A stretch of 37,788 nucleotides of DNA from assembly GCA_944382885.1 (NCBI GenBank), contig CALWNT010000058.1:1-37788 (forward strand). The letters run 5' to 3'. This stretch comes from an uncultured Clostridia bacterium. GTDB taxonomy: Bacteria; Bacillota; Clostridia; Oscillospirales; Ruminococcaceae. The notes under the pieces are model-generated. The model was not told where the DNA came from. It worked only from the letters and a program-made list of their open reading frames with translations, and searched no databases. How positions within the stretch are numbered: position 1 is the first letter of the stretch; each line of letters begins with the position of its first letter. This document shows positions 6,584 through 32,529 of this stretch, piece by piece. A program made the translations under genes and the position numbers.

Positions 6584-7456
6584 TTATAATTCTTTTGCAA
6601 GCACCTTTAAATAAGCGCGAAACTCTTTTCCTATTTCAGGATGTTTAAGTCCTGTCTCTATCGTCGCCTGTAAAATTCCCAGCTTATTGCCCATGTCATA
6701 TCGGGTTCCGATAAAGTCTACGCCGATCATCCCTTTTTTCTGAGCCAGAATTTTCATTGCATCTGTCAGCTGATACTCACCTCCGGCTCCTTTCGGCAAA
6801 ACTTCTAAGATTTGAAAAATTTCAGGGGGAAGGACACAACGTCCCAAAACAGAATAATTAGAAAAAGCCAATTCCTGTGTAGCGGGTTTTTCTACCATGT
6901 CGGATACCCGATACACATTATTTTCTAACCAGTCTACTTTTAAGGAAGAGTACCGCGTTACCTGTTCGAAAGGGACTTCCTTCATGCATACACAGCCTAA
7001 CTCATACTTTTCATACTGTTCCAGAAGCTGCTGACACACAGGATAGTCTCCCATAATAACATCATCGCCATATAACACGGCGAAAGGTTCCTCTCCTACA
7101 AAAGAGCGGGCACACATGACAGCGTGCCCTAATCCCTTTGCTTCCGGTTGACGGACATAGGTGATATTGGCAAGATTCGAAATTTCCACAACTTGCTCAT
7201 ATGATTTCATTTTCTTGCCCGCCAGCAGCCGAGTCTCTAACTCCGGTGCTCGGTCAAAATGATCCTCCACAAGCCCTTTTCCGCGGCTTAAAATGATACA
7301 GATATCTTCAATACCGCTTTTGACTGCTTCTTCTACAATGTATTGAATCGCGGGCTTATCCACAATAGGAAGCATTTCTTTTGGCATTGCCTTTGTGGCG
7401 GGCAATACGCGGGTGCCTAATCCCGCTGCAGGGATTACTGCTTTTCTGACTTTCAT
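6584..7456 (-). CDS. galU: UTP-glucose-1-phosphate uridylyltransferase GalU
   Basis: Makes UDP-glucose from UTP and glucose 1-phosphate, supplying UDP-Glc (and UDP-Gal by epimerisation) for surface glycans; cytosolic. The 290 residues match the bacterial family. The N-terminal nucleotidyltransferase signature is AAGLGTRVLPATKAMPKEML, followed by VDKPAIQYIVEEA; later GLGHAVMCA and GDDVIMGD are typical. It is last in the minus-strand polysaccharide locus, 214 nt behind the phosphatase gene, so it may have its own promoter, though I see no convincing one. It plausibly feeds the Glf branch of the locus through UDP-galactose. No UDP-glucose 4-epimerase gene is present in the window. Confidence 0.95.
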   Translation of the reverse strand: MKVRKAVIPAAGLGTRVLPATKAMPKEMLPIVDKPAIQYIVEEAVKSGIEDICIILSRGKGLVEDHFDRAPELETRLLAGKKMKSYEQVVEISNLANITYVRQPEAKGLGHAVMCARSFVGEEPFAVLYGDDVIMGDYPVCQQLLEQYEKYELGCVCMKEVPFEQVTRYSSLKVDWLENNVYRVSDMVEKPATQELAFSNYSVLGRCVLPPEIFQILEVLPKGAGGEYQLTDAMKILAQKKGMIGVDFIGTRYDMGNKLGILQATIETGLKHPEIGKEFRAYLKVLAKEL

Positions 7457-7670: not shown

Positions 7671-8162
7671 CTATTTTTGTGTTTTGACCAGCCATTCGAT
7701 AAATTCACGAACCGCACCATCGCCACCATTTTTAGAAGAAATAAACTCGCACACAGCTTTTATTTCATCAGCGGCATCTTTCGGGCAGCCGCGAAATCCA
7801 CAAATTTCCATACAGCAAAGATCGGGAATATCATCTCCTATGTAAGCCACTTCTCGCAGAGTACCATCCTGATCGGCAAATACCCCATATTTTTGAGCAA
7901 TTTCCAACATTTTTGATTTTTTATCTTTACAGCCTTGATGAATTTCTGCTAAATCAAGCTCTTTGGCCCGGTTTTCTACAATAGCGGATTTTCTCGCCGT
8001 TAAAATTACCGGGACAACTCCGTTTTTCTTGAGGATTCCGTTAATGCCATGCCCATCCTTTACAGAAAAACTTTTGAATAATTCCCCATTTTGTCCGATG
8101 TGAATTTTGCCGTCCGTTAATGTCCCGTCAACATCCATAACAAATAATTTGACTGATTTCAT
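7671..8162 (-). CDS. KdsC-like HAD phosphatase
   Basis: Probable phosphatase of a sugar-acid phosphate, of the KDO-8-phosphate / N-acylneuraminate-9-phosphate phosphatase type (small HAD without large cap); cytosolic. The 163 residues are the usual size. HAD motifs: MDVDGTLTDG (nucleophile and acid Asp), ILTARKS, the lysine region CKDKKSKM, and GDDIPDL. It follows the first SGNH/LbH gene by 13 nt and is co-directional with the cytidylyltransferase and aldolase upstream, so its likely job is to dephosphorylate the aldolase product before CMP activation. True KDO is rare in Bacillota, so I do not call it kdsC. The start is the ATG at 8162; the ribosome site is weak. Confidence 0.8.
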   Translation of the reverse strand: MKSVKLFVMDVDGTLTDGKIHIGQNGELFKSFSVKDGHGINGILKKNGVVPVILTARKSAIVENRAKELDLAEIHQGCKDKKSKMLEIAQKYGVFADQDGTLREVAYIGDDIPDLCCMEICGFRGCPKDAADEIKAVCEFISSKNGGDGAVREFIEWLVKTQK

Positions 8163-8175
8163 ATTCTCATCGCCT

Positions 8176-9894
8176 TTATTTTTCTATTTTTTTGCCATCC
8201 AGAGACCCCGACCATGTGATTCCCTGCCGAATCACCCTGTCTTTGGGATAGCTCCCGACAACGATTGAATGCTCTGGAAACGTGTTTTTTAACCGGCTTC
8301 TTGCCCCAACCATACTGTCGTTTCCGATCTTTGCGCCTGAAAATACGTTCACTCTCAGCCCCAGCCATACATGGTCTCCGATGGTAATGCCGCTTCGGGG
8401 GAAACGGTGTCGGGGACGCAGCCAGGCCAGGCGTTCGCATTCGGTATTTTTAATCACCACTTGTGTGGAAATCAAACTTTTTTCCCCTATGGAGATATCC
8501 GAAAAATCTCCGCTGTCTATGGTTAAGTCTACCCCCAAAACCCCTTCTTTTCCAATGGTTACAGTAGAGTTGTCCCCGCACAAAATTTGGAGCCCTTCTG
8601 TTCCCACTGCCAGCGTTCGGTTATCCTCGTCTATAAAAATCGTATTTGAATTCCAAACTTTAATACTTATTTTGCTGGAATACAATATACGGTGTAGGGT
8701 TATTTGGTTGTTCGCACCATGAATACAGATATTAATCGGGTCCTCGGATGCGGTCTTATTTCCAAAACAATCCTGATAAGTTCCGCAAAATTCCTTTAAT
8801 TCGACTGGTTCAAGTACAGGGCATAAATAGTCTTTTTGGGGAACAAACCCAAAACTCCATAAAAAATCCAGCAAATTCGTTTCCACCCGATCGAAGGGAA
8901 GAAACCAAAAATATTGAGTCCTATCCAGATAAGGACTATCCCCCTTTTCTTTGCTGCCCAGTATAATGGAAAGCTCCTCTTTTTCCAGCGGAATGATTTT
9001 CGGGAATCCTAAAGCTGTTAACTGTTCGGCCGTTAACACTTCAGATTTTGGCATGACAACTGTTCTGCCTTCACACTCTTCTAAAATTTTTCGCCGGGTT
9101 TGATTCAGCCATAAACCTTGTATTTCGAAAAACATTTCTTGCTTCTGCTTTTTGAGCCATGCCTCCGGTTGAAACTGATGATTGCAGACACCCTGTAAAG
9201 CGTCGGAAATATAGTGGTAACAGGAACTTGGATAACTCCAGATCGTTTGATAATCGACTGCGATCATTCCCGACGGGAAAGGGACAAACACACCGGAAAG
9301 GTATTTGCGGGCCAGCCGGTAACAACGGGTATAAAACTTATTTTGCTTTTGCAGGTTTTCATAATTCGGGACTAATTTTAATCGGTTGTCTTTAGAAACG
9401 TATTGCAGGACATGCTCGTTTTCCAAGACAATGATTTTTTTACCCGGAAAACTTTCGGTTAATGCCAAAGCGAAGGATTTTATTTCCGTTTCCAGTTCTT
9501 CTTCGCTCCAAAGGCACGGATCGACTATTTTAGAGGATAATACTCCACCCGCATTTTTTAAGATTTCTTCCCGATGTGGCTGAGTAAAATTAGAAACCGT
9601 TAAACGGAATTTTTCACCATTTGATAACTCGAATTCTTCAAAATGCATCCTCGCATCTATAAAATCAAGGAGAATATATTCCGCTTCCTTACATCCGGCT
9701 GCGTTTCCAAGCTCGAACGCGACCATACTGTCCGCGTATTCGCCTGCATCCGGTTCAAATAAGGTTAAGCTTTTATTCCAGTTTCCCCCATAAGAAAAGG
9801 GAGAAATATTAGTGATTCTCAGCTCATTTTTTACTCCTTTCTGAAACTTAATTGCGTCGTCCAATACTTTCGCGCCAAAGGTCATACACTTCAT
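8176..9894 (-). CDS. SGNH-like / Rossmann-like / left-handed beta-helix protein, paralogue 1 (O-acyltransferase-like)
   Basis: 572 residues in three parts. The N-terminal part (about 1-290) resembles DUF6270/SGNH-like modules of capsule loci (TFGAKVLDD near the start, LLDFIDAR). A middle alpha/beta part (about 290-370) follows, then a left-handed beta-helix of hexapeptide repeats (ITIGDHVWLG, KIGNDSMVGARS, IVVGSYPKD). It is a paralogue of the next two upstream genes and probably modifies the glycan, for example by O-acetylation. Unlike them it lacks the DGH(N/A)I motif that carries the usual acetyltransferase His; the corresponding stretch reads NTECERLAW. It may be inactive, use another residue (HRF follows), or bind only. 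Start 3 nt after the previous stop, behind GGAGAGGG. Confidence 0.65.
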   Translation of the reverse strand: MKCMTFGAKVLDDAIKFQKGVKNELRITNISPFSYGGNWNKSLTLFEPDAGEYADSMVAFELGNAAGCKEAEYILLDFIDARMHFEEFELSNGEKFRLTVSNFTQPHREEILKNAGGVLSSKIVDPCLWSEEELETEIKSFALALTESFPGKKIIVLENEHVLQYVSKDNRLKLVPNYENLQKQNKFYTRCYRLARKYLSGVFVPFPSGMIAVDYQTIWSYPSSCYHYISDALQGVCNHQFQPEAWLKKQKQEMFFEIQGLWLNQTRRKILEECEGRTVVMPKSEVLTAEQLTALGFPKIIPLEKEELSIILGSKEKGDSPYLDRTQYFWFLPFDRVETNLLDFLWSFGFVPQKDYLCPVLEPVELKEFCGTYQDCFGNKTASEDPINICIHGANNQITLHRILYSSKISIKVWNSNTIFIDEDNRTLAVGTEGLQILCGDNSTVTIGKEGVLGVDLTIDSGDFSDISIGEKSLISTQVVIKNTECERLAWLRPRHRFPRSGITIGDHVWLGLRVNVFSGAKIGNDSMVGARSRLKNTFPEHSIVVGSYPKDRVIRQGITWSGSLDGKKIEK

Positions 9895-9897
9895 TTT

Positions 9898-11718
9898 CTA
9901 TCCCTCTCCTTCCTTTGTTTTTTGTAAAAATTCCCGGTCTATGTTTGCTTCTTCTGAAAAAAGGTCTGTTACGAATGGATTGCGTGTCCAAGCAACGTCT
10001 TTTTTCACGGTTTTCGCAGGAGAGCCGACGATAATTGCATTATTTGGATGTTTTTCCTTTACCATTGATCGCGCTCCTATAATAGAGCCCGCGCCGATAT
10101 CCGTACCTGCCAGCAGCACCGTCTCATAACCGACCCATACATGTCCCGCTAAATGAATCGTAGTTTTCGGAGTGTCTATTACCTCTTTGGTAAAATTTAT
10201 GCATCTTCCGGTCTGTAAATCTTGAATATTGTGCCCATCTCCGCTTTGAATATAAATTTTATTGGAAAACATACAGTCCCTGTCAATAATGATAGTTGAC
10301 AAATAGGTTGCTCTAATTGTATTATTATCAGCAAATGTTGTATCCTGTCCAATAAATAGTTCAGATCCCGGATTTAATCCAATACTCAATCGAGCAGGCC
10401 GTACATTGTTTTCTATAACAAGCTTTGTTTGTTCATAAATACCTGCTGATATTTGATATGGCTGAAGAGTTCCTCCACCTATCGAAACAAAACAGGCATT
10501 TCCTTGTAAATGCAGTACGATTCCTCGTTTTACCGTGACAACATTATGATACACATCGCTGTAACTGCCGGTAAACTGAGATAGATTTATTGTTTCATGC
10601 TTTGGCGTAAGGATATCGGCGGGATAAGTATATCCATGCTGAAACATTCTTTTCAGCATATTGTCCTGGGCAAACAGATGGGGGAAAACAAGGACATATT
10701 CCTCGCTTTTATCCTGTATTTTTTCTATTAGACTGTCATTCCACGGCATTTGATAGGAGTAAGGAACCACTGCGTAAACATACCTTGCGAATTCAGGAAA
10801 ATCTTCTAATACCTCTGAACTGCCGAACAAAATGACAGATCGGCCTTTACCTGTTTTTTGATATTGCTCGATTAAATTGGGGAAGACGAGACGGTCTATC
10901 TTTATCTGCATTTGGTGCATATAAGCCCTGCGCAGTTCTTCTGCCTTTTGAGAGTCAAATTTTGTTTCTATATTCGCCAGGAGATAAGAATAATATTCTT
11001 CAATATAATTTTGCGGTTCTTGATTCGAGCTGTTCTGTCCCCCTACAAAAATATCCACCTTCGGGATCAGGGAACAGTTTGGGCTTCTTTTTTTGAGCAG
11101 AGCAATACATTTTTCCGCAAGAGTATTTTTGAGGCCGGTTTCTCTCAGATTCGCGGAAAAAACAATCTGGTTTTTTTCGATTCTCTGATATGGCAGATAG
11201 GCCTCTGACACCAATAGTTGTCCTGATTTTTCCGTAGAAACGGAATCGAGCCAATCCATAAATTGGTTCATTTCAACTTCCAACTGTGTTTCGTTCCAGT
11301 TTAATGGTTCAATTAGATTTTTGCTGGTAAGTTTACCGTGAAGTTCTTCCAGTTTGGAAACAATACCTGGTTCATATTCTTCTAAAATTTCACTCTGGGT
11401 AATGCGTACTTTCGTATGGTCCGAAAAACAAAATTCAGAGATGGGACGCCACACGTCTAAAAAATCCAAACAGAAAAAATCGATTTTTAAATGTCTTAAT
11501 TTTTCAGACAAACTGTCTCCGAAATGATAACAAAGCATGTCGGATAGATAAGAAGATTTTTCTTTAATCATATCAAAATCCAGAATATCTCCTTGAGATT
11601 GGCTGTTACACCACAAAACAAAAGGGGATACTCTGGTGATTCTCAATTCATTTTGATGTTTACCTGACGCAACAATCGCTTTATCTATCACACTTGTCCC
11701 AAATGTAACAAATTTCAT
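9898..11718 (-). CDS. SGNH-like / Rossmann-like / left-handed beta-helix protein, paralogue 2 (O-acyltransferase-like)
   Basis: 606 residues from the ATG at 11718, chosen because GGAG sits 4 nt upstream and MKFVTFGTSV aligns with the start of paralogue 1. Three parts: an N-terminal DUF6270/SGNH-like module (FGTSVIDKA; CLDFLDVWR), a middle alpha/beta module (about 300-375, beginning RSVILFGSSE), and a left-handed beta-helix C-terminus. The last has an intact acetyltransferase pattern: SGDGHNIQD with the likely catalytic His, then HVWVGYETVLL, IIGARSMV and VGSPAKTVKKDVAW. This suggests an acetyl-CoA-dependent O-acetyltransferase on the glycan or its precursor. It starts one base after the stop of paralogue 3, so expression is coupled. 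Confidence 0.7.
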   Translation of the reverse strand: MKFVTFGTSVIDKAIVASGKHQNELRITRVSPFVLWCNSQSQGDILDFDMIKEKSSYLSDMLCYHFGDSLSEKLRHLKIDFFCLDFLDVWRPISEFCFSDHTKVRITQSEILEEYEPGIVSKLEELHGKLTSKNLIEPLNWNETQLEVEMNQFMDWLDSVSTEKSGQLLVSEAYLPYQRIEKNQIVFSANLRETGLKNTLAEKCIALLKKRSPNCSLIPKVDIFVGGQNSSNQEPQNYIEEYYSYLLANIETKFDSQKAEELRRAYMHQMQIKIDRLVFPNLIEQYQKTGKGRSVILFGSSEVLEDFPEFARYVYAVVPYSYQMPWNDSLIEKIQDKSEEYVLVFPHLFAQDNMLKRMFQHGYTYPADILTPKHETINLSQFTGSYSDVYHNVVTVKRGIVLHLQGNACFVSIGGGTLQPYQISAGIYEQTKLVIENNVRPARLSIGLNPGSELFIGQDTTFADNNTIRATYLSTIIIDRDCMFSNKIYIQSGDGHNIQDLQTGRCINFTKEVIDTPKTTIHLAGHVWVGYETVLLAGTDIGAGSIIGARSMVKEKHPNNAIIVGSPAKTVKKDVAWTRNPFVTDLFSEEANIDREFLQKTKEGEG

Positions 11719-11719
11719 A

Positions 11720-13486
11720 TTACTCCTCAACTTCCACTGCCGGGAAACCGGCCAAGAAACTTTTTTCATGCTGAAACACCTTGTTTACAAAAGATTCCGC
11801 CTCAACCATACACCCTGACGGAATTTGGCTGCCGGACAAGACAAAAGCGTGTTTTCCGATACGAACCCGGTCGCCCAAAAGGATTTTGTGTTTTTGAGGG
11901 TTTGTATTGGTCAGATTATAGTTGATATTCTGATTGGTATTCAAATCAAAAATGGCATGTCCGTCGCCGTTAAACAGTAAGGAGTTATCCTCCAACACAC
12001 AATTCTTCCCCATTTGCATTTGAAAGAAAAACGAGTTTCTTAAATGGAAATTACTTCCTAAATAGGTGTTTTCACCAAAATACGCAGAAGAACCGTCATA
12101 ACAGGTGGAGTGAAAACGTTTTTCTCCCGTTTGTATTCCATCTTCCATTTTTATATCAGTTTCATGCATCAGCAGAAAAAAACTGTTTGGTGAAATTTTT
12201 CCGCTGCCAATAGAAACTCTGGTACCGCAGCCGGCAAGTTTAATGGTAATAGGTGTTTTGACATCCAGTTGATTGCCGTAAAAATCTTCATAATTTCCAT
12301 AAAAATCTTTTAGTTCAATAAGTGGGTGATTGATGCAGTAATAACCGGTATTAAAACCATATCCCATTTCCCACAAGGTTCTTAAAATATGATTTTGAGC
12401 ATATAGGCGGGTGACTACAACCATATACTTTTCGTTCTGCCAGGCATAGGGAGAAAGTTGTTCCTTTACTGATTCAACCGTCGTCATTTCATCGAAATAG
12501 ATGCTTTGAAATACTTCTAAACCATATTTTTTCTTCAGCAGATAAGAAAAAGTCTCGACCTCTCCTACAACGATGATTTTTCTGTTCCTGTATCTGGAAT
12601 AGGTCAAGTCCACAATAGACTTTAACAAAAGCTCTTTTAATTCGATTTCATTTTTTAGATTATGTCTGTTTAAAATATTAGCCGCCTGTTCCGAAGAATA
12701 TTCATTTTTATAAATAGCTGTCAAACACTGATTGATGTAGTCATAGTAAGAAAAATTATAATGGAACATATTGGCGGGCTTTGTCTTTTCGTTTCCGTAC
12801 AGAGCCTTCGTTTTAGAAATCGTAACACAGTTGCAGTATCGCTTGAAGTATGTTACACATAAATCATAAAAATGATTATATTGATTTACCAGTGCTACTT
12901 GGGATAACACACCGAATCGCTCAAGTTTGTCAAAATATTGATAAATATTCTGTCCCTCCAGCAAAACTACTTGTTTTCCGGAAAATTCCCTTTTCAGTTT
13001 TTCGCAGTAACGTTTGATTTCGTTTTCCAATTTTTCTTCAGGCCATGTCAATGGGTTACTTCTGGTTTCACTTATGATTTTTGCTGAGAATACTTTTTCC
13101 AGATACTGCTTTATGGCAGTTTCCTGTTTTTGTATTTCAGAATCCCAGGTAAGGCGATAGACGGTGCCATTATCAAATTCCAGTTCATAGATAAAATTTC
13201 TCATACACAGCATGTCCAACACAATCATATCGCTGTTGAACTGTTTGACATAGGAATAAACTTGTTTACAAAAATCCAAATAGAAAATTTTGTCTTTATA
13301 TTTGTTCCCCAGCGTAATTTCGGGTAATGCCATACTTTGACACAGTTGTTCCTGAGTTTCGTCACAGGTATAAGCGAAAGGAGATTTTTCTACAACACGA
13401 GCATCAAGAACAAAATCCTTTTTTCTATATTCTATTGCGTCTGAAGCAATTTGGGTGCCTAATACAGAGATATGAATTTGTCTCAT
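11720..13486 (-). CDS. SGNH-like / Rossmann-like / left-handed beta-helix protein, paralogue 3 (O-acyltransferase-like)
   Basis: 588 residues. The N-terminal module is the most divergent of the three (VLGTQIASDA; IVLDMLCMRN), followed by the alpha/beta module (RNRKIIVVGEVETF, about 310) and a beta-helix with NGDGHAIFD (probable catalytic His), LLGDRVRIGKH and FLAGFPAVEVE. The conserved linker FYGNYEDFYGN has counterparts in the other two paralogues (TGSYSDVYHN, CGTYQDCFGN). The start codon directly follows the aldolase stop (TAAATG), so translation is coupled. Role inferred as O-acetylation or related modification; whether the SGNH-like part has esterase or transferase activity cannot be told. 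Confidence 0.68.
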   Translation of the reverse strand: MRQIHISVLGTQIASDAIEYRKKDFVLDARVVEKSPFAYTCDETQEQLCQSMALPEITLGNKYKDKIFYLDFCKQVYSYVKQFNSDMIVLDMLCMRNFIYELEFDNGTVYRLTWDSEIQKQETAIKQYLEKVFSAKIISETRSNPLTWPEEKLENEIKRYCEKLKREFSGKQVVLLEGQNIYQYFDKLERFGVLSQVALVNQYNHFYDLCVTYFKRYCNCVTISKTKALYGNEKTKPANMFHYNFSYYDYINQCLTAIYKNEYSSEQAANILNRHNLKNEIELKELLLKSIVDLTYSRYRNRKIIVVGEVETFSYLLKKKYGLEVFQSIYFDEMTTVESVKEQLSPYAWQNEKYMVVVTRLYAQNHILRTLWEMGYGFNTGYYCINHPLIELKDFYGNYEDFYGNQLDVKTPITIKLAGCGTRVSIGSGKISPNSFFLLMHETDIKMEDGIQTGEKRFHSTCYDGSSAYFGENTYLGSNFHLRNSFFFQMQMGKNCVLEDNSLLFNGDGHAIFDLNTNQNINYNLTNTNPQKHKILLGDRVRIGKHAFVLSGSQIPSGCMVEAESFVNKVFQHEKSFLAGFPAVEVEE

Positions 13487-15109
13487 TTATTGGTTTTTCG
13501 CCTCTTTTCTGGATTTGTGATACATGCTTTCCGTTAAGAACGAAACGCGACATTTATATTTCAGTGAATGAATATATTCTTCCAACATTTGCGAAATTTC
13601 TCTATTGATAGCGTCAAATTCGTTAATATGTCTGTCATTTTGGAAAAAATCATTGATATAGTTGTTGTCAAGCTCTTTATTGAATCCGTCAAAGCCGGCA
13701 AGACAAATCTCTTCTACACCAATGCGCCTTAATAAATACAGCAGCATCATAGTAGAATTTTCAAAATACTGATATTGTGTATTGATTAAATCGTAATAAT
13801 TAACAACGTAATCATTCTCGTTATCAGGAGATATATTGGAAACAACAATACAAGGTTTGTTGGCTCTCTCTGCAGCAAAATTAAAGTATCTTTTCTTATT
13901 TCCATAAAAAGTAATATCAGCTCTGGGATCAACAAAATTTACACTAATTGTGTAAACATCATTTTCTTGAGCATATACATCTATTTTTTCCTTGTTATTT
14001 TTGATACTATTCCCAGGAACGATGACAAGCACTTTTTTATTTCCAATCAAATTTTTTAAAGTTTTGATGGTTTCCATGTCGTCAATTTTTGTGGCGGTAT
14101 ATTCTACATAAAGTTTTTCGATATTATCATAATCATAGCGTTGTCTCAACTGTGGATCGATCATAGAAATAAGGTTTTTAATATCTCTAGATTGTAAACG
14201 GAATTTTGAAGTTAAATAAATGATATTATTAGGATGACTTTGATAAATACCTGCCATTAAGGATGGAATGGAATATCCCCATTGATAACTTTCCTTGTAG
14301 GGGTAAATATAATCGTCAATTAAATCGCAGATCAAATTAAATTCATAATCCATTCCTTGTTTTCTTACCAGATAATCAATCAGTAACTCAGTATTTAAAT
14401 TTCCCGCTACTTTTCCCATACCGTTTAAGGTCGCGTCAATGATAATATCTCTTTTTCCGTATGCGATAGAAATCATTTCCTGTGCCAGAGAGAAAGACAA
14501 TTGATAATTGTTATGGGAGTGAAAATCGATGCAAATGTCTTTTAGCAGATTGTTATTTATAAGATTAAAAATGTTGGATAAATCATCTGCATACATTGCA
14601 CCGTAAGTATCCACAATGCCAAATCCGAATGGTTCTACTTCGTTTACCATTTCAATAACTTCCAGCATTTCCTTATCGGTATAGGATAAAGAGTTAACTC
14701 CTTGGATAAATAACTTGTATCCTCTGTCCTTGACAATATGTAAACACCGTATAATTTCATTTTTTTCATTTAAGAAATTTTTTTTAGTAAATCCGACACG
14801 AATTCCCTCTATAGAACGCCCATCATGTGGTTTTAGGGTATCAAAATCGAACATACCGAAATCTACAAAAGCAACATACATTGCATCGCTGGATTTATCC
14901 ACAAATGGAATAATCTGTTCAACATCTGTAAAAAAGGTGCTGTTGCCCTGGTAGTTTACATTTCTCCAATCTCTCAAGAAACCTATTTCAATAATGTCAA
15001 TTTTGGCTGCTGCCAACTTATAAGACATTTCTTTGATATAGGAATCTTCAAATGCACAATCGATAATTCTGCCACCGTCTCTTAGTGTACAGTCCAATAC
15101 CCGTACCAT
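13487..15109 (-). CDS. DRE-TIM (HMGL/DmpG-like) aldolase fused to an unassigned C-terminal domain
   Basis: 540 residues, two domains. Residues 1 to about 310 are a DRE-TIM metallolyase barrel like HMG-CoA lyase and 4-hydroxy-2-oxovalerate aldolase: LDCTLRDGG with R10 and metal-binding D11, HSHNN with metal ligands H197 and H199, and DATLNGMGKVAGN (225-237). Such enzymes make or break bonds next to pyruvate-type enolates. Residues about 355-540 form a separate domain starting KKVLVIVPGNSI and including CLAGFDGFN; this resembles the GPS motif region of MptE/DUF115- and GT42-like proteins. It lies between a CMP-sugar-acid synthetase and the SGNH/LbH genes, so it probably makes the carbon skeleton of an ulosonic acid in place of NeuB or KdsA. 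Substrate unknown. Confidence 0.75.
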   Translation of the reverse strand: MVRVLDCTLRDGGRIIDCAFEDSYIKEMSYKLAAAKIDIIEIGFLRDWRNVNYQGNSTFFTDVEQIIPFVDKSSDAMYVAFVDFGMFDFDTLKPHDGRSIEGIRVGFTKKNFLNEKNEIIRCLHIVKDRGYKLFIQGVNSLSYTDKEMLEVIEMVNEVEPFGFGIVDTYGAMYADDLSNIFNLINNNLLKDICIDFHSHNNYQLSFSLAQEMISIAYGKRDIIIDATLNGMGKVAGNLNTELLIDYLVRKQGMDYEFNLICDLIDDYIYPYKESYQWGYSIPSLMAGIYQSHPNNIIYLTSKFRLQSRDIKNLISMIDPQLRQRYDYDNIEKLYVEYTATKIDDMETIKTLKNLIGNKKVLVIVPGNSIKNNKEKIDVYAQENDVYTISVNFVDPRADITFYGNKKRYFNFAAERANKPCIVVSNISPDNENDYVVNYYDLINTQYQYFENSTMMLLYLLRRIGVEEICLAGFDGFNKELDNNYINDFFQNDRHINEFDAINREISQMLEEYIHSLKYKCRVSFLTESMYHKSRKEAKNQ

Positions 15110-15125
15110 GTTAGAATCCCTCCCC

Positions 15126-15782
15126 TTACGATTTACGCTTTTTTAAATATGCCGCTACTGCCTGAGCAAATTCAAAATCCTCTCGAGTGTCAATATCCAC
15201 AGCCTCAAACTGGTCAATTTCATAAATATAAGGCTTGTCACCGATCCTTTGGTGAAGTTTTTGAAATACCTCTTTTGTGAAAATAAAGAACGCCCCTGTT
15301 TCCATATAAATTGGTTCCAAGTCTTGTGTACGCACAATGTTTTTCATATCATAATTAAATGGTTTTCCTTGATACCACATATAATCTTGTAATACCACCG
15401 CACTGAAAGCGGAGTCGTATTCTCCGCTGGTTACTTTAGCCAGTGCGTTTTTAATTGATTCCGCTTTGGTGAACGGCTGTGTAACATGTGTAATGATATA
15501 AATATCAGCATCTACATCATTTACAAAGGCTTCGATAATATCCAAACCTTTTACCATAAATCCATCTAAGCGGGCATCTCTTTTCAAAAATTTTATCCCC
15601 TGGGGAATATATGGGATAATTGCTTCGTCGCTGCAATAAACATATTTTTCATCAATTTCGTCTATTTTGCTGACGGTTTCAAATAAATATTCACAAACTG
15701 GTTTTCCGTCCAGATCCATCAGGTTTTTTCCAGGAAGTCTTTGATTATTTAATTTGATTGGTATAAACAATGCTACTTTCAT
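15126..15782 (-). CDS. acylneuraminate/KDO-type cytidylyltransferase (CMP-sugar-acid synthetase)
   Basis: Probably activates a 3-deoxy-ulosonic or nonulosonic acid with CTP to give the CMP-sugar; cytosolic. The 218 residues fit the NeuA/NeuA-like family. The nucleotide-binding start is FIPIKLNNQRLPGKNL (family pattern IPA-x-SKRIPGKN), followed by YCSDEAIIPY, ITHVTQPF and a C-terminal VDIDTREDFEFA. The lysine/arginine-rich signature is slightly unusual (KLNNQR rather than RGGSKR). The previous gene's stop abuts its ATG and the aldolase follows 16 nt later. No sialic acid synthase is present, so the substrate is likely not ordinary Neu5Ac. Confidence 0.85.
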   Translation of the reverse strand: MKVALFIPIKLNNQRLPGKNLMDLDGKPVCEYLFETVSKIDEIDEKYVYCSDEAIIPYIPQGIKFLKRDARLDGFMVKGLDIIEAFVNDVDADIYIITHVTQPFTKAESIKNALAKVTSGEYDSAFSAVVLQDYMWYQGKPFNYDMKNIVRTQDLEPIYMETGAFFIFTKEVFQKLHQRIGDKPYIYEIDQFEAVDIDTREDFEFAQAVAAYLKKRKS

Positions 15783-17678
15783 TTATTTTCCTCTTTTCTC
15801 TGCTAATACTCTTTCTAAATTGTCCCTGTAAAATACTTCTAATTTCCCGCCTCTTGTGACATTGTAAATTTCGCAACGCTTTTTGTAAGCAAATGGCCTG
15901 ATAGCTTTATATCCTTCTATTGCTAAAGCAGAGGCCTGAGGCAACCAACCTTCTTTGATTTTTTGTTGGTCTCCCGGCGCTTCGATAAAATGAATTTTAG
16001 GTTGTGAGTAGTCGCAATCAGCACCGATAATATAAATTTCTTTGAATCCCATATATAAAGCAATTTGAATTGCCATATTGGTAACGGTAAAGCCTTCGTA
16101 AACGCATACTGACATATCTTTACTGTACTTAATTTTTCCTTTTTCTAACCAAGAGGGTTGATGATTTTTATAGTTAATTAATAAGTAGGTTTCTCTGCCA
16201 TTTTTTGTTTTAGGATCGCACCGATAATGAAAAAAGCTTTCTCTTTTCGCAAATGTGCCGCCATATACAGGATGATCGTGTAGTTCTTTTCCGAAACTTC
16301 TGAAATCGATCAACGCATAATAAGTCGGTCTCCATTTGGTATGCTCATATGCCTTTGTAATACTGTTTACCCCAATTGTGTATTCATTTTCCAATAATTC
16401 TAAATCTTTAATGGTTAAGGATGGACCTGGACAGGTGATAAACACACGTTCGCCTTTATGGATATTTTTAAATCTTTTAATCCAACGCATATCTTTATTT
16501 AACCAAGATAAATGCAAAAAGCTTAATATTCTTCTATTTCTGATTTTGCGATGCATTGGTAGATCAGACTCTACACTCCATGTCTTTTTAGTCGTGTCAG
16601 GCATGTCTTTTGTTTGGTACCAGTGCACGATCTTACGAATTGTTTTACTTGTTAAAAAAGGATATAGTAGCCCCTTCGACTTAAATAATAAATCTATTCT
16701 GCGAGAACGGGTTTCTTCGTATAGAGTAGGATCGATTTCTTTTACGGAATTGGCAAACGAAATAATTTCTTTTTTGATTTCACGACTTCTTTTACAAATG
16801 CCATAATAAATGTCGTACTGACGAATGACACGATATCTATTTTCTTCTTTTATATGTTCATAAATATTAGGAGAAAATTCATCTTTATGTTCCGCGCAAA
16901 AACGAAGTGTTCGCTCTACCACAACACGGCGGTCTTTATGTTTTCTTGCGAATACACTGGCATCGACACTTTGGCCTTCTCTTCCCAAACGATATTGATA
17001 GAGGTATCTGTCAATTGGCAATACGGTTTTGACATATGCCATCGGCATCGTGTCGTATTCAATATCATCATAGGAAACTCGCTCAGAGAAGCGAATGTCA
17101 TGTTCCCTTAATAAAGCAGTTCTGTATGTAATGTGATGGAATAGATATTGGTTAGAAAAATCAAATAATTCTGTTTCGAAATCGTATACCTGCCCATAGA
17201 TTAAAACTTTTCTGCCTGGTTTTGGATTTGCTTTTTTTTCATCAATTTCTTTACGGTTCCAAACATTTTTTATTCTGATTTTAATTTGTTTGTCAGAATT
17301 TTCAAATACCTTTACAAAATTGGTCAGCACCATATCCGCATCATGGGTTTTTAAATCTTTTATCATAGCTTTTAACGACTCGGTGTCAAACCAATCATCA
17401 GCATCCAAGGGCCTATAATATTTACCACTTGCAAGTTCGATTCCTTTGTTCAGTGCTGATCCATGACCACCATTTTCCTTACAAATAACTTTAAAGGTAT
17501 TTGGGTATTGTTCTTCATATTTTCTGGCTACTTTTGCAGTATCATCTTTAGAACCGTCGTCAATAATTAACACTTCTAGATCGTTCATATACTCGTCACA
17601 AATCAAAGAGTCTAAGGTTTGAGCAATATAGTCCTGCATATTATATGCGGGGATGACTACACTTAATATTTTTTCCAT
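15783..17678 (-). CDS. GT2 glycosyltransferase with MptE/GT42-like C-terminal domain
   Basis: 631 residues from the ATG at 17678, which has GGAGAAC upstream; the frame is open 14 codons further but lacks support. The N-terminal GT-A domain (about 1-230) is family 2: SVVIPAYNMQDY, IIDDGSKDD, and the metal motif LDADDWFD. The C-terminal domain (about 400-631) begins ERVFITCPGPSL and continues with IGVNSITKAY and IYIIGADCDYS. This pattern is shared by DUF115/MptE-like proteins, Maf flagellin glycosylation factors and, more loosely, GT42 sialyltransferases. The cytidylyltransferase is next in the operon, so this domain is a reasonable candidate to transfer the CMP-activated acid, with the GT2 half adding the acceptor sugar. 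That is inference. Confidence 0.75.
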   Translation of the reverse strand: MEKILSVVIPAYNMQDYIAQTLDSLICDEYMNDLEVLIIDDGSKDDTAKVARKYEEQYPNTFKVICKENGGHGSALNKGIELASGKYYRPLDADDWFDTESLKAMIKDLKTHDADMVLTNFVKVFENSDKQIKIRIKNVWNRKEIDEKKANPKPGRKVLIYGQVYDFETELFDFSNQYLFHHITYRTALLREHDIRFSERVSYDDIEYDTMPMAYVKTVLPIDRYLYQYRLGREGQSVDASVFARKHKDRRVVVERTLRFCAEHKDEFSPNIYEHIKEENRYRVIRQYDIYYGICKRSREIKKEIISFANSVKEIDPTLYEETRSRRIDLLFKSKGLLYPFLTSKTIRKIVHWYQTKDMPDTTKKTWSVESDLPMHRKIRNRRILSFLHLSWLNKDMRWIKRFKNIHKGERVFITCPGPSLTIKDLELLENEYTIGVNSITKAYEHTKWRPTYYALIDFRSFGKELHDHPVYGGTFAKRESFFHYRCDPKTKNGRETYLLINYKNHQPSWLEKGKIKYSKDMSVCVYEGFTVTNMAIQIALYMGFKEIYIIGADCDYSQPKIHFIEAPGDQQKIKEGWLPQASALAIEGYKAIRPFAYKKRCEIYNVTRGGKLEVFYRDNLERVLAEKRGK

Positions 17679-17680
17679 TT

Positions 17681-19447
17681 TTACTGTTCTCCTTGTCCCA
17701 AATCTAAATATTGTTCCCAAAACTTTATATTTGTAATTTCATGAATGCGTTCTTTCCATTCGATACTAACGTCATACATTTTGTTTTTAATAAGTTTTTT
17801 TGCTTTTCTGCATTCGAGTTTGCATGCAATCATTTTTTTAAAACTTTTTCTATAAATGCATTTTTTCCCGGTTATGCGGTTAATTAAAGTAACCTGTTTT
17901 GCGCGATAAGGAAAAGCCTCAGATATATTACAATTCACAACGATCTCTTCTTTTTTTGCCGGTAGCAAGTAATTTTTCAATAATCCTTTTTTGGATAAAT
18001 AGGAGACAGATTGTGTATTGTCTATTCTGCTTCTTAATTCCTCATCAGCTTCCTCCCAAGGCTTATTATATTTACTTAAAGTTTGATTAAGAGAAACTGG
18101 ATCAATTTGCATAAAGGCATCTATTCCTTTGCAAAAATCCTTGATTGCCTGACATGCCGCCATCGTTCTTTCATAATCGTAGTTAAAGATGGAGCGATGA
18201 AAAATATTCAGCCACTCCAATGCATATTCATCAATCAGTCTTCCGCCTAGTTCTGACATTACAATCAACTTGTTTCTCACATCATAGTACACAATAGAGG
18301 CTCCTCTTTGATTAGTAAAAAACGGATGCCATACGCCGATTCCGTTGATCGTAATTACTTCAAAATTATTTCTTGCGCCATATTCCACGTCATCCATATG
18401 AATAAATAGTGGTAATGGCAGATTGTCCCAGTTAATCTTGCTCAACGGCATACAACAATAGCACCACGCGTTGTAGTTTCTGTCAAACAATCTCTCGTTT
18501 TGGATTACATTCCTGAAAGTGCGCAAATCAATATTGTTATTTTTAAAAATTAGTTTACCTTTTCGGTATAATGCTGCATTCTCGAATTGTTGATATGGTT
18601 TGTCTAAAATTAGCATGCTTCCGCCAATCATCGCATCTTTATATTCTTTTTTGAGGAAGCGAAGAAACATATAGGTTCGTTCTAAGACATTCGGATCTAA
18701 CAAAATATCATCATCCATTAAGATAATATGAGAAAAATTTTTTTCTTCCTGCTGCTTTTTTGCTTCGATGATACAACGCGTAAAACCGCCGCTGCCACCA
18801 ACATTTTTATTGTGGAAAATATAGAGACTTTCTTCTGTTTTTTCAGATAAAGTTTGACCGTTATCCGAAACAAACACATACAGGTTATCGTATAAAACAG
18901 AAGCAGGATTATGAATAATGGTATCCTTTAACAACTTTAAATTTTTTTCAACGAATTCTTCTCTTCGAAAGGTACAAATACCGACTGCAATTTTCACAGA
19001 ATTTAATTCTAAGTTTTTACAATCCGTTTGATAATTAGCTCGATACAAAATGGTAGTATCGGAATAAGAAAAAATTCTAAAATAAGCAATCACACCATTA
19101 GGACATGCAGGATACTGTAAAATTAGAGTTTCTCTATCGGTTTTTCCTTTCTGATAAACAACTTTATTATCTCCTTGTAATCGAATGATATTTTTACTGT
19201 CAATCCATGCGTAACAAAGACAAATATCGCAAATGCCTTCTATATCTAGCTCCAGTTTTAGTTGTTGCAAGTGGGTATATTTTTTCCACTTCATAATGGA
19301 AAAGGAGTTAAAGTAAGTGTTTGTTTCTAGCAAGCCATCTTTTTTGATATGAGCTTCTGTGCTTATTTCTATATTTTTTCCGTTGAAATACAAATTTTTT
19401 TCTCGACAAACAGATTCATTCGGAAAAAGTAATTGTTGTAAGATCAT
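17681..19447 (-). CDS. GlfT2-like galactofuranosyltransferase (second copy)
   Basis: 588 residues from the ATG at 19447, preferred because GGAGGGG sits 9 nt upstream and MILQQLLFPNESVCRE aligns with the start of the paralogue upstream; an in-frame ATG six codons earlier would put that site inside the gene. Layout as in GlfT2: N-terminal beta-rich domain (about 1-165), GT-A domain from VGICTFRREEFV, metal motif ILMDDDI, the acceptor-site region YNAWCYCCMP, metal His in VWHPFF, and a helical C-terminus. GlfT2 uses UDP-galactofuranose to extend galactan, which fits the glf gene of this operon. It is clearly homologous to the neighbouring 19470-21203 gene but well diverged. Confidence 0.8.
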   Translation of the reverse strand: MILQQLLFPNESVCREKNLYFNGKNIEISTEAHIKKDGLLETNTYFNSFSIMKWKKYTHLQQLKLELDIEGICDICLCYAWIDSKNIIRLQGDNKVVYQKGKTDRETLILQYPACPNGVIAYFRIFSYSDTTILYRANYQTDCKNLELNSVKIAVGICTFRREEFVEKNLKLLKDTIIHNPASVLYDNLYVFVSDNGQTLSEKTEESLYIFHNKNVGGSGGFTRCIIEAKKQQEEKNFSHIILMDDDILLDPNVLERTYMFLRFLKKEYKDAMIGGSMLILDKPYQQFENAALYRKGKLIFKNNNIDLRTFRNVIQNERLFDRNYNAWCYCCMPLSKINWDNLPLPLFIHMDDVEYGARNNFEVITINGIGVWHPFFTNQRGASIVYYDVRNKLIVMSELGGRLIDEYALEWLNIFHRSIFNYDYERTMAACQAIKDFCKGIDAFMQIDPVSLNQTLSKYNKPWEEADEELRSRIDNTQSVSYLSKKGLLKNYLLPAKKEEIVVNCNISEAFPYRAKQVTLINRITGKKCIYRKSFKKMIACKLECRKAKKLIKNKMYDVSIEWKERIHEITNIKFWEQYLDLGQGEQ

Positions 19448-19469
19448 GAGTAATATCCCCTCCAATTTT

Positions 19470-21203
19470 CTATCTATTCCGATAGTTTTTTGCTCCTATA
19501 AGCAGATAGTGTGCAGAAAGTTTCATCAATCGACATAGGCTATTCCAAAAAGTCTTTTTAGAAATTTGGCTGACATAGCCCTTTTGATTAAAAAAGTTAT
19601 AATGTAGTACCTTGTCTGCGCCGAAATACATCTGGTCTGAATCGTAAATGGCATCGGTAATTCGATACCCATCCTCCTCTTTTGGGTATAGAAATTTCGG
19701 CGCCAAATAGCCATTTAACGTTAATTTTTGCTTAATAGACCAGTGTTCTTCAGAACGGCCAGAACGGAAACGTTCCGGTCGAAAAGCTACTTGATACTGC
19801 TCATACAGTTCTCTTTCCGTCAGAAATCTTTCCGAGCACCTGAGCAATTCCTGATGTAAACTCTCCGGATCAATTTTTTGTAAATAGTCCATCCCCTTTA
19901 TAGCGTCCTCGTAACCTCTGAGAATCATTTGAGCGGCATTATACTGATGATGATACAGCTTTTGCAGAACATCCTGCTTCATCTTTTGTACAAAGTCCCT
20001 TTTGGCATACTTCGTTCCTAAGAGTGTATGCATCAGCCAGAAATTGCGAGTGTTGTAGTATTCTATTACTGTGCTGTATTTTTTTTCAAACAGCTCATGC
20101 CAGACGCAAAATCCATTCAGGGTAATGATTTTGAGCTTACACCGCAGGCAGAACTCCACGTCGTCATATTTGAGAAAAAACGGACGGGGCAGGTTATTCC
20201 CGGTTGCCTTTACTGGCATACACATCAGCCACCATCCGTTATAATCGATTCTGCGAAGTTTTTCGTTTGCTAATACCTGCTGTTTTTCCCTCAGATCGAC
20301 AAAATGGCCATTCCCTATTTGTGTGAGTCCATCCATGATGCCTCCTGCCTCAAACTGGCGGTAAGGCTCGTCCATATAGAGCATACTCCCGCCGACACAG
20401 AGATCTTGGTACTCCGTCTTTACTACTGACAAAAAGGCATGCAATCGTTCAAAGCATCTGATATCCGTTAGGATGTCATCGTCCATCAGTATCATGTGGG
20501 TGTATTTTCCGGCGTTCCTGACTTCTTCCATCCCCCTGGAATAGCCGCCGCTCCCTCCCAAATTTTGTTGATAGATTAGGTGAAGCCGAGAATCGTTAAA
20601 TACTTCTCCCGACAAAGTCCGCCCATTATCGACGACCCAAAAATCCAAATATCCATCTAAATTTGTATTGGAGATTCCTTTCAAAAAATGTTCCAGATTT
20701 TTTAGAACATATTGCTCGCGATGATAAGTACAGATAATTCCCGCAAGGTTTACCGTTTTCTTAATGAGCTTTGAGGGTTCACAATGATAGGCAAGGGACC
20801 AGATTTTTAACTCTGATTCTGACGCTAATGTAGGATAAAACAGCACACAGTTATCTGCTATTCCGTCTGAGGGAACAGGAATCGACAATTCCATTCGGCC
20901 GCCTGCGTTTAACTGGCAGGACAGCAGCGTCTTCCCCTCTGCCTCTAGACTGCGGATACAGAATGTACCTTGGCCCTGAAAACAGACAGCTATGGAGAAT
21001 TGGCAGGCATTGGTATAACGGCGGTATTTTTCGATGGGAAATGAGTTAAAATAGGTGTCAAAAGAAACCTCTCCCCCATTGTGTAATGTGAGGAGTTTTT
21101 CGTTCTCAGACCAAGTCACCTTTTGCGGATCATTTGCCCGATAGTATAGTTCTGTTTCCCGGCAAATCTGACTGTCCGGAAATAGTATTTCATATAGTTT
21201 CAT
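19470..21203 (-). CDS. GlfT2-like galactofuranosyltransferase (first copy)
   Basis: 577 residues. N-terminal beta-rich domain (MKLYEILFPDSQICRE), GT-A domain from GIICTYHREQYV, QNLGGSGGYSRG, metal motif ILMDDDI, the GlfT2-type YNGWWLMCMP and metal-binding VWHELF, then a helical C-terminal part. It probably adds galactofuranose from UDP-Galf to a lipid-linked or growing glycan at the inner membrane face. Two such enzymes suggest either alternating linkages or initiation plus elongation, by analogy with GlfT1/GlfT2. The 148-nt gap after glf is AT-rich with no clear promoter. A GAGGG about 13 nt upstream of the ATG is a weak ribosome site. Confidence 0.82.
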   Translation of the reverse strand: MKLYEILFPDSQICRETELYYRANDPQKVTWSENEKLLTLHNGGEVSFDTYFNSFPIEKYRRYTNACQFSIAVCFQGQGTFCIRSLEAEGKTLLSCQLNAGGRMELSIPVPSDGIADNCVLFYPTLASESELKIWSLAYHCEPSKLIKKTVNLAGIICTYHREQYVLKNLEHFLKGISNTNLDGYLDFWVVDNGRTLSGEVFNDSRLHLIYQQNLGGSGGYSRGMEEVRNAGKYTHMILMDDDILTDIRCFERLHAFLSVVKTEYQDLCVGGSMLYMDEPYRQFEAGGIMDGLTQIGNGHFVDLREKQQVLANEKLRRIDYNGWWLMCMPVKATGNNLPRPFFLKYDDVEFCLRCKLKIITLNGFCVWHELFEKKYSTVIEYYNTRNFWLMHTLLGTKYAKRDFVQKMKQDVLQKLYHHQYNAAQMILRGYEDAIKGMDYLQKIDPESLHQELLRCSERFLTERELYEQYQVAFRPERFRSGRSEEHWSIKQKLTLNGYLAPKFLYPKEEDGYRITDAIYDSDQMYFGADKVLHYNFFNQKGYVSQISKKTFWNSLCRLMKLSAHYLLIGAKNYRNR

Positions 21204-21351: not shown

Positions 21352-22458
21352 TTATTTTACTTTTAATTCTTTTTTCGCCGTGTTCAAGGCATCTTCGATT
21401 ACCTTGTCCATATCATAATATTTGTATTCACCTAAACGGCCGCCAAATATCACATCTTTTCTTTCATCTGCCAGAGCTTTGTATTTTAAATACAGTCCGT
21501 TATTTTTTTCATTGTTGATGGGGTAGTATGGTTCTGATTGTTGGGAAATCCACTCAGCAGAATATTCCCGGCTAATGACAGTTTTCGGCTGTTCTCCAAA
21601 TTCGAAATGTTTATGTTCGATCACACGGGTATAAGGAACGTCATGAGAAGTATAATTTACCACTGCATTTCCCTGATAGTTATCGCAATCTAAGACTTCT
21701 GTTTCAAACCGGACGGAACGATATTCCAGCGTACCGTATTGGTAATCAAAAAATTCGTCAATAGGGCCGGTATAGATAGTTTTTTTAGCGATGTTGGGAT
21801 GATCTTTAATGAAATCAAAGTAATCACAGTTTAATTTGATCGTGGCGCCGTTAAGCATCTTTTCGATAATTTGAGTATAACCGCCGATGGGAATTCCCTG
21901 ATACCGGTCATTGAAATAGTTGTTGTCGAATCGAAACCGCAGCGGCAGCCTCTTGATAATAAACGAAGGCAGTTCGCTACATGGCCGGCCCCATTGCTTT
22001 TCGGTATATTCTTTTACCAGTTTTTGATAAACATCTTTTCCTACTAATTTTAGTGCCTGTTCTTCTAAATTTTTAGGTTCCCCGATGTTTAAATCAGCAA
22101 TTTGTTCGGCGATCTTCTGTTTTGCTTCTTGTGGAGTCTTTACTCCCCACATTTGAGCAAAGGTATTCATATTAAAGGGAAGATTATAAAGTTCATCATG
22201 ATAGATTGCAACTGGAGAATTGATATAATGATTGAATTCTGCGAATTGATTGATATAGTTCCATATAGCTTGATTGGAGGTATGAAAAATGTGTGCACCG
22301 TACTTATGAACTTCAATTCCTTCTACAGAGTGGGTGTAAATATTTCCCCCGATATGGTCTCGTTTTTCTAATACCAGACAGGTTTTTCCCGCCTTAATAG
22401 CCTGTTGGGTAAAAACAGCGCCAAATAAACCAGATCCCACCACTAAATAGTCATACAT
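21352..22458 (-). CDS. glf: UDP-galactopyranose mutase
   Basis: Flavoenzyme that converts UDP-galactopyranose to UDP-galactofuranose; cytosolic. The 368 residues are the typical bacterial length from the ATG at 22458, which has GAGGAGG at good spacing; the frame is open 18 codons further without support. Seen: the FAD dinucleotide motif VVGSGLFGA, EKRDHIGGN, YGAHIFHTS, KQWGRPCSELP, and the C-terminal GGRLGEYKYYDMD characteristic of Glf. It is the first gene of the minus-strand operon and fits the two GlfT2-like transferases behind it. Confidence 0.97.
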   Translation of the reverse strand: MYDYLVVGSGLFGAVFTQQAIKAGKTCLVLEKRDHIGGNIYTHSVEGIEVHKYGAHIFHTSNQAIWNYINQFAEFNHYINSPVAIYHDELYNLPFNMNTFAQMWGVKTPQEAKQKIAEQIADLNIGEPKNLEEQALKLVGKDVYQKLVKEYTEKQWGRPCSELPSFIIKRLPLRFRFDNNYFNDRYQGIPIGGYTQIIEKMLNGATIKLNCDYFDFIKDHPNIAKKTIYTGPIDEFFDYQYGTLEYRSVRFETEVLDCDNYQGNAVVNYTSHDVPYTRVIEHKHFEFGEQPKTVISREYSAEWISQQSEPYYPINNEKNNGLYLKYKALADERKDVIFGGRLGEYKYYDMDKVIEDALNTAKKELKVK

Positions 22459-22511
22459 ATGTGCTCCTCCTCGATCATTCCAAAAGCAAATACATTTGAG
22501 TCGATTTTCCA

Positions 22512-22540
22512 TTTGGATTTTTATTTAGGAAAAATCCAAA
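22512..22540 (-). other. hairpin in the glf operon leader
   Basis: A perfect 11-bp inverted repeat, TTTGGATTTTT / AAAAATCCAAA with a 7-nt loop, lies about 54 nt upstream of the glf start, inside the expected leader. No T run follows on the minus strand, so it is not a plain terminator. It could stabilise the leader or act in control. Confidence 0.4.
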
Positions 22541-24654: not shown

Positions 24655-24764
24655 GATTGATTACTCCTTTGCTGATAAAAGTCGTTTCTTTTGGAGTTAT
24701 CATAACATGTCTAAAAAGTTTATTTGCTCTCTCTGTTAACTTTATAGTTTGAGATAGTAAAACA

Positions 24765-24800
24765 GCTACATAATATTTCTATATTGTGTAGCCGCTGACT
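24765..24800 (-). terminator. weak terminator behind the degenerate recombinase gene
   Basis: GCTACATAATAT pairs with ATATTGTGTAGC (one wobble) around a 4-nt loop; on the minus strand a TGTTTTA tract follows. Confidence 0.5.
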
Positions 24801-24804
24801 ATAA

Positions 24805-30498: not shown

Positions 30499-30533
30499 AA
30501 ACAGCAATAAACAGCAAAACAAGGAGTATGACT

Positions 30534-32488: not shown

Positions 32489-32529
32489 TCTAAGAGTAAA
32501 CGTGTAATTGAAAGGAACCGTGAATCGTG

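Follow-up and report, generated by a model that had tools for sequence, protein, structure and literature searches.

A DRE-TIM aldolase paired with a cytidylyltransferase in glycan loci of gut Clostridia: a proposed PEP-synthase-independent route to CMP-activated ulosonic acids

The capacity of a genome to make nonulosonates and 3-deoxy-D-manno-octulosonate (KDO) is usually judged by the presence of NeuB and KdsA. The window analysed here (the whole 37,788 nt of contig CALWNT010000058.1, from an uncultured Clostridia bacterium of the Ruminococcaceae; assembly GCA_944382885.1) raises the question of whether such an acid can be made in another way: a cytidylyltransferase gene lies beside the gene for an aldolase of the DRE-TIM superfamily, in a glycan gene set that includes a KdsC-type phosphatase. 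A preliminary description of the locus proposed an aldolase-built route to cytidine monophosphate (CMP)-ulosonate, in place of NeuB or KdsA. This proposal is largely supported by the pairing of the two genes, by the separation of the pair from NeuB, and by the co-occurrence (and, in one locus, fusion) of the aldolase with KdsC. Our best explanation, to which we assign a probability of roughly 0.72, is that the locus makes a CMP-activated ulosonic acid without a phosphoenolpyruvate (PEP)-dependent synthase, the DRE-TIM aldolase supplying the acid.

Pairing of the aldolase with a cytidylyltransferase

The aldolase (HMGL-like, 540 aa; positions 13487–15109, minus strand) matches PF00682 with 68 bits against a cut-off of 29. 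The cytidylyltransferase (15126–15782, minus strand) lies upstream of it, separated by 16 bases, and belongs to the CTP_transf_3 family (PF02348, 59.7 bits; cut-off 22.6). Its best NCBIfam match is PseF (TIGR03584, 61.5 bits, under the cut-off of 205.7) and its nearest solved relative is PpNeuA (9t4z, 2.7e-13); on the basis of these PseF/NeuA-like similarities, we propose that it is a CMP-ulosonate synthetase.

The window is one contig of a 2.56 Mb draft genome (202 contigs, 94% complete), which contains three full-length aldolases (contigs C58, C79 and C199). PF02348 is matched in four places in this genome: three lie directly upstream of the three aldolases, and the remaining match is GlmU (574 bits; cut-off 450). 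Therefore, each ulosonate-type cytidylyltransferase seen in the genome has an aldolase partner. The Pfam model for NeuB (PF03102) gives a single match in the genome, a 3-deoxy-D-arabino-heptulosonate 7-phosphate (DAHP) synthase (499 bits; cut-off 335) beside aroB (373.5 bits; cut-off 305), and the NeuB equivalog TIGR03569 finds nothing better than 4.4e-4. Similarly, no KdsA was found by TIGR01362, which reaches only the same DAHP synthase (112 bits; cut-off 314). A second pyruvate aldolase of the DHDPS/NAL family was considered as a source of ulosonate and rejected, as the genome contains only one gene of that family.

Gene neighbourhoods were compared for 121 aldolase loci: 40 from a class sample, the best 80 of at least 557 confirmed relatives from a scan of named genomes, and the window. 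Given that the best 80 relatives were taken, the sample leans towards full-length members near the window's aldolase. A CTP_transf_3 gene lies directly upstream of the aldolase (<300 bases, same strand) in 74 loci, or 73 distinct pairs, since L034 and L097 are on the same contig; 42 partners are PseF-like and 32 KdsB-like, and all 74 match PF02348. The pairs come from 18 of the 40 class-sample loci, 55 of the 80 named-genome loci and the window. The first cytidylyltransferase profile also caught IspD-like domains, and three fusions with such domains (L062–L064) were removed from the count using separate profiles and Pfam. Grouping at 70% identity yields 94 groups, 55 of which have the pair (33 PseF-type, 21 KdsB-type and one mixed PseF/none); the unpaired groups consist of 27 with a thiamine diphosphate (ThDP) enzyme, 11 with no partner and one IspD fusion. 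Records containing the pair are titled Lachnospiraceae, Prevotella, Paenibacillus, Bacillus, Fretibacterium and Helicobacter, several of them metagenome-assembled genomes. With three pairs in one genome and pairs in 74 of 121 loci, the pairing is not a product of chance.

No relative of NeuB or DAHP synthase/KdsA was found in any of the 121 loci, 12 of which hold less than 9 kb and so provide weak absences; the NeuB profile recovers all ten of ten left-out NeuB sequences. Together with the single DAHP synthase match in the window's genome, this upholds the earlier statement that no NeuB or KdsA synthase is visible.

A quick tree of the aldolase barrels (119 of the 121, with SH-aLRT support only; L097 was omitted, as was L060, whose gene is divided between two frames) indicates how the partners have changed. 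Placing the five partner labels on the tree takes 26 changes, as compared with four when PseF and KdsB are merged and 14 unpaired rows are omitted. If only well-supported branches are considered, the PseF label must change at least 13 times and the KdsB label at least 10 times (including changes to no partner or to ThDP). Judging from this tree, the cytidylyltransferase subtype is often exchanged without loss of the pairing, a pattern that speaks for a functional link between aldolase and cytidylyltransferase.

A class sample of 391 genomes (one draw) was searched for all three families; the comparison covers 122 CTP_transf_3 genes (E ≤1e-12), 90 NeuB genes (E ≤ about 1e-33, weaker ones omitted) and 48 of 68 aldolase genes (the 20 weakest omitted). 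The 122 cytidylyltransferase genes are distributed over 88 genomes: 72 of them have NeuB within 6 kb and 19 have an aldolase within 1.5 kb; no gene has both neighbours, and 31 have neither. The pair is present in 13 of the 24 NeuB-less genomes versus 3 of the 64 NeuB-bearing ones (Fisher p 7e-7, an optimistic value because the genomes are related). KdsA scores over the cut-off in none of the 16 pair-bearing genomes, 15 of which are at least 90% complete, and the arabinose-5-phosphate isomerase KpsF in none of the 14 examined; a classic KDO route with one missing gene was rejected on these grounds. The preliminary description had suggested a survey of genomes for the aldolase–cytidylyltransferase pair, NeuB/KdsA and the phosphatase. 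Ours favours its proposal: the pairing is frequent, no cytidylyltransferase of the class sample is near both NeuB and an aldolase, and KdsC is present in 33 of the 74 pair loci.

The aldolase and its C-terminal domain

The aldolase consists of a barrel (approximately residues 1–310), a linker and, at the C-terminus, a domain of roughly 190 aa (approximately residues 350–540). Residues R10, D11, H197 and H199 do not vary among 75 aligned sequences; from the alignment to 1nvm, we take them to be the Arg and the Asp/His/His metal ligands of the DmpG/BphI family. Three further residues, H292, W277 and Y279, are likewise invariant in the alignment, and their conservation suggests that they may take part in catalysis. 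In a Foldseek search with the barrel of the AlphaFold model (pLDDT 93.2), the best match is 3dxi (2e-17), followed by 4-hydroxy-2-oxovalerate aldolases, with isopropylmalate synthases (IPMS) and homocitrate synthases ranking behind. A profile search gives the same picture: 3dxi (4.5e-45) comes first, and aldolases are again ahead of IPMS and homocitrate synthases. Both by sequence and by fold, then, the nearest relatives of known function are pyruvate aldolases. On this similarity, we propose that the enzyme is a pyruvate aldolase making a 2-oxo-3-deoxy acid (or its phosphate).

The best solved relatives of known function, DmpG/BphI/MhpE, share the TIM barrel and the four active-site residues. 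The window's aldolase differs from them in several respects: it scores far under the family cut-off (TIGR03217, 63.5 bits; cut-off 286), another residue takes the place of the His that follows the TLRDG motif, it has an extra C-terminal domain, and it is found in glycan loci. By score and motif, we judge that it is outside the DmpG family. As a further difference from DmpG/BphI/MhpE, Pfam and NCBIfam scans detected no aldehyde dehydrogenase among the genes of the set. The closest solved structure, 3dxi, is BVU_2661 of Bacteroides vulgatus, a putative aldolase by its title. It has the same TLRDGG motif, and differs in that the solved structure is of the N-terminal domain only.

The C-terminal domain (13487–14062 in the window; own model pLDDT 94.5) is not covered by a dedicated Pfam family, and a search against PDB sequences gave no convincing match. 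Compared by fold with the PDB, it matches MptE (8sd5, 2.8e-4), ST8SiaIII (5bo9, 8.2e-4; the human enzyme with a CMP-sialic acid analogue) and SteA, with weak E-values of 2.8e-4 to 8.7e-4; phage MptE-like models are matched at 2.5e-6. The modelled domain may have the MptE/sialyltransferase fold (PF01973; GT29); by sequence the match is weak, the Pfam MptE-like family being reached in only 3 of 62 aldolase members (E ≤0.1). The domain is missing from two short members (L058 and L059), both still paired with a cytidylyltransferase, and is present in members accompanied by ThDP enzymes. The proposed aldol step can therefore do without this domain, which is not necessarily a transferase of CMP sugars. 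The preliminary description was right in linking the aldolase to a cytidylyltransferase; it missed the C-terminal domain, and the occurrence of the aldolase with ThDP enzymes.

Gene set and proposed pathway

The complete set is a tight, co-directional series of genes on the minus strand, running from 21203 to 7671 (open reading frame check of the window). Open reading frames and profile scores confirm the genes that had been listed for it earlier: a KdsC-like phosphatase, an HMGL-like aldolase with metal ligands, a cytidylyltransferase, and a glycosyltransferase with an MptE domain. The extent given then was too short, with two GlfT2-like transferases at the start of the set, and glf upstream of it, to be added.

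In the direction of transcription, the set begins with two paralogous candidates for GlfT2-like galactofuranosyltransferases (19470–21203, PF17994; and 17681–19465, PF17994 and PF00535). These are followed by a glycosyltransferase (15783–17720; likely ATG start at 17678) that combines a GT2 domain (PF00535, 114.2 bits) with an MptE-like domain (PF01973, 51.3 bits; cut-off 34.6). Elsewhere, too, MptE-domain genes often precede the pair, and the window's glycosyltransferase is a candidate for the transferase of the CMP sugar. After the cytidylyltransferase and the aldolase come three tandem paralogues with N-terminal DUF6270-like and C-terminal hexapeptide acyltransferase-like parts (8176–13486). 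They encode proteins of 588 aa (11720–13486), 623 aa (9898–11769) and 572 aa (8176–9894); the last scores 27.5 bits for PF19786, at the cut-off, and is under the cut-off for PF00132, while the other two were recognized by Pfam and NCBIfam scans and by paralogy. The set ends with a haloacid dehalogenase (HAD) phosphatase of the KdsC/YrbI type (7671–8162; TIGR01670, 137.8 bits, cut-off 106.95; KdsC 4um5, 4.6e-32), for which we propose a role in dephosphorylating an ulosonate phosphate. It scores under the cut-off of the KDO-8-phosphate equivalog (PRK09484, 130.6 bits; cut-off 208).

The gene upstream of the set encodes a UDP-galactopyranose mutase (glf, 21352–22512, minus strand; PF03275, 277.8 bits), and the one downstream the UTP-glucose-1-phosphate uridylyltransferase GalU (6584–7456, minus strand; TIGR01099, 331.5 bits, above the cut-off of 326.8). 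Galactofuranose and a CMP-activated ulosonic acid are probable constituents of the surface glycan made by this locus. Two tyrosine integrase genes (23464–25722), one of the Tn916 type, border the glycan genes on their upstream side and point to a mobile element. Further along (30528–35070), genes for a HAD hydrolase, an iron alcohol dehydrogenase, a phosphonate-binding protein and a permease form an operon of the phosphonate-uptake type.

From these genes, we infer the following chemistry, including the pyruvate donor, the phosphorylated acceptor, the direction of the reaction, the identity of the sugar, and the transfer step. The aldolase would (i) bind pyruvate enolate on a divalent metal held by D11, H197 and H199, and join it to an aldose phosphate, giving a 2-oxo-3-deoxy-aldonate phosphate. 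The KdsC-type phosphatase would (ii) remove the phosphate to yield the free ulosonate, which the PseF/KdsB-type cytidylyltransferase would (iii) convert, with cytidine triphosphate (CTP), to CMP-ulosonate. Finally, an enzyme of the MptE/sialyltransferase fold, either MptE-domain or polysialyltransferase-like, would (iv) transfer the ulosonate from CMP-ulosonate. BphI, a relative of the aldolase, adds pyruvate to aldehydes, according to PMC3962088.

Other loci contain the same functions in various arrangements. KdsC is found in 33 of the 74 pair loci (27 times directly downstream or fused), in 0 of the 30 ThDP-type loci, and in 4 of the 14 remaining loci, three of these with a cytidylyltransferase-like gene located 2.4 to 4.5 kb upstream. 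The aldolase of L034 carries a fused KdsC domain, which scores above the TIGR01670 cut-off. In four loci (L035, L098, L099 and L100), a unit consisting of an MptE-domain gene, cytidylyltransferase, aldolase and KdsC is flanked by genes on the opposite strand, so the unit itself is without precursor genes; because of these stand-alone cassettes, the acceptor is probably an aldose phosphate from central metabolism. The first cassette gene of L100 (7030–9150) carries its MptE-like domain fused behind a domain of the CDP-glycerol glycerophosphotransferase type (335 bits). A cluster of polysialyltransferase-like genes occurs in 19 cytidylyltransferase-type versus 0 ThDP-type loci (PF07388 above the cut-off in one scanned member), and a second, weaker one in 11 versus 0 (the scanned member under the cut-off). 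Another cluster, with a protein of about 705 aa (L043, 9789–11906; one scanned member without a Pfam match), is found in 17 cytidylyltransferase-type and no ThDP-type loci.

This arrangement is like the NeuB/KdsA–KdsC–NeuA/KdsB pathways in that KdsC, CTP_transf_3 and MptE-domain or polysialyltransferase-like transferases are clustered. It differs in that no PEP-dependent synthase was found here, an HMGL/DRE-TIM aldolase lies beside the cytidylyltransferase, and KpsF is not found above its cut-off in the 14 pair-bearing genomes examined.

Alternative explanations and other partners of the family

Several observations weigh against the proposed pathway. KdsC and the aldolase are separated in the window by the three genes for DUF6270/hexapeptide-type proteins, and neither KdsC nor a second HAD cluster is found in 29 of the 72 pair loci tabulated (of 74), namely 18 of 40 PseF-type and 11 of 32 KdsB-type. 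The 31 of 122 cytidylyltransferases that are near neither NeuB nor an aldolase (e.g., five in genome G360, and two each in G016 and G239) mean that a missing NeuB alone is no proof of replacement. NeuB is present elsewhere in 3 of the 16 pair-bearing genomes, and about 20 kb away on the same contig as the pair in G313 (L059, outside both the 16 and the 122). A KpsF match below the cut-off (113 bits; cut-off 203.7) occurs in G104, one of the 14 genomes examined for it. In addition, the window's own genome is an incomplete draft. As to the enzyme itself, the DmpG residue after the TLRDG motif (a His that is presumably the base) is R14 in the window and mostly Tyr in relatives; therefore, the chemistry could differ.

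Lastly, the aldolase is also found with other partners. An acetolactate-synthase-like ThDP enzyme is encoded within 6 kb in 30 of the 121 loci (within 60 bases in 17), with no adjacent cytidylyltransferase and no KdsC; a ThDP gene is also present in three pair loci. Three aldolases have an IspD-like, ribitol-5-phosphate cytidylyltransferase-like domain fused in front (L062, 9413–11152, scanned as a fusion; L063, 8866–10605, and L064, 1519–3249, identified by profile).

These last observations mean that the aldolase family is not exclusive to CMP sugars, and that its product need not always be CMP-activated. The ThDP-type loci (e.g., L037, L044, L048, L054, L056 and L057, and, from Spirochaetes, L115) often hold DegT-family, dehydratase, sugar nucleotidyltransferase and CDP-dideoxysugar-type genes; they may be responsible for branched-chain sugars, for which the aldolase product would serve as acyl donor. 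All three loci with IspD-like fusions contain a D-2-hydroxyacid dehydrogenase gene. It is plausible that a 2-oxo acid is the common substrate of the three kinds of partner: CMP-ulosonate synthetase, ThDP carboligase and 2-hydroxyacid dehydrogenase. As such a product would suit all three, the apparent counter-example becomes a prediction. Three distant matches were found in the plasmid collection, and no aldolase match in the phage collection. Of the plasmid copies, that of Desulfobaculum is accompanied by rfbH and transketolase-annotated genes, and that of Priestia has a ring-cleavage dioxygenase and a tautomerase, by annotation, as its neighbours.

The alternative that survives best, unlikely as it is, holds that the aldolase makes a different carbon–carbon bond, involving another 2-oxo acid or a Claisen condensation with an acyl-CoA, and that the cytidylyltransferase activates an acid other than an ulosonate. 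IPMS, citramalate and homocitrate synthases belong to the same superfamily, and both the loss of the DmpG His and the ThDP and IspD-like partners are in keeping with this alternative. However, those synthases score behind the aldolases, which are the best matches by sequence and by fold, and the CTP_transf_3 partners are PseF- or KdsB-like. The KdsB-like partner in L042, the only one scanned, passes the CMP-KDO synthetase cut-offs (266.2 bits versus 255; TIGR00466, 161.4 versus 155.2). In addition, KdsC-type enzymes act on ulosonate phosphates, their known substrates.

It is quite unlikely that the aldolase runs in the cleavage direction, recycling or degrading ulosonate in a NanA-like role, with the CMP sugar made from salvaged or external ulosonate. 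Class II pyruvate aldolases are reversible, and the lack of dedicated precursor genes in the four-gene cassettes would fit salvage; yet the cassettes carry a glycosyltransferase-type gene and a phosphatase, rather than uptake or catabolic genes. A KdsC partner and the aldolase–KdsC fusion imply a phosphorylated product, and the window's genome yielded no other source of ulosonate, be it NeuB, KdsA or a second gene of the DHDPS/NAL family.

That the two genes merely share a glycan island, with NeuB or KdsA lost in the gaps of a draft assembly of 202 contigs, is very unlikely: three pairs in one genome, the frequency of pairing across loci, the exchange of subtype with the pairing kept, the KdsC fusion, and the lack of an above-cut-off KdsA in 16 largely complete genomes all speak against it. 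Least likely of all is phosphonate tailoring, with a phosphonate as the substrate of the cytidylyltransferase and the HMGL-like enzyme in the role of a phosphonomethylmalate synthase: CTP activation of phosphonates is common, according to PMC6697681, 48 of the 74 partners match a family named there (PF12804), and the window has its phosphonate-type uptake operon, but PF12804 is matched more weakly than PF02348, which all 74 partners match and the cited passages do not name, and we rejected this reading since PEP mutase was not found in the window's genome and is above the cut-off in only 3 of the 16 pair-bearing genomes (not found in the other 13). In one genome, G370, a PEP mutase gene (contig C9, 61758–62609) does lie about 3 kb from an aldolase–cytidylyltransferase pair, so that this glycan locus combines genes for phosphonates with genes for a CMP sugar.

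We thus favour an aldolase-built CMP-ulosonate as the product of the locus. A broader version, to which we give even odds, is that the PEP-synthase-independent route is a portable three- to four-gene cassette, and that the same aldolase family provides 2-oxo acids for ThDP carboligases (for branched sugars) and for IspD-like/2-hydroxyacid-dehydrogenase systems (for CDP-activated reduced acids). No account of an aldolase-based route to CMP-ulosonates appeared among the papers listed by searches of the open-access (PubMed Central) literature, a scope that leaves most subscription papers outside.

From their genes, many gut bacteria seem to make an acidic, sialic-acid-like building block with an aldolase of another family, which replaces the sialic acid/KDO synthase. 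If this is true, surveys based on NeuB and KdsA overlook such sialic-acid-like acidic sugars in many gut Clostridia. The enzyme, likened in family searches to 4-hydroxy-2-oxovalerate aldolase, would gain a function in glycan loci, and a PEP-free enzyme for ulosonate synthesis would become available, together with a short cassette.

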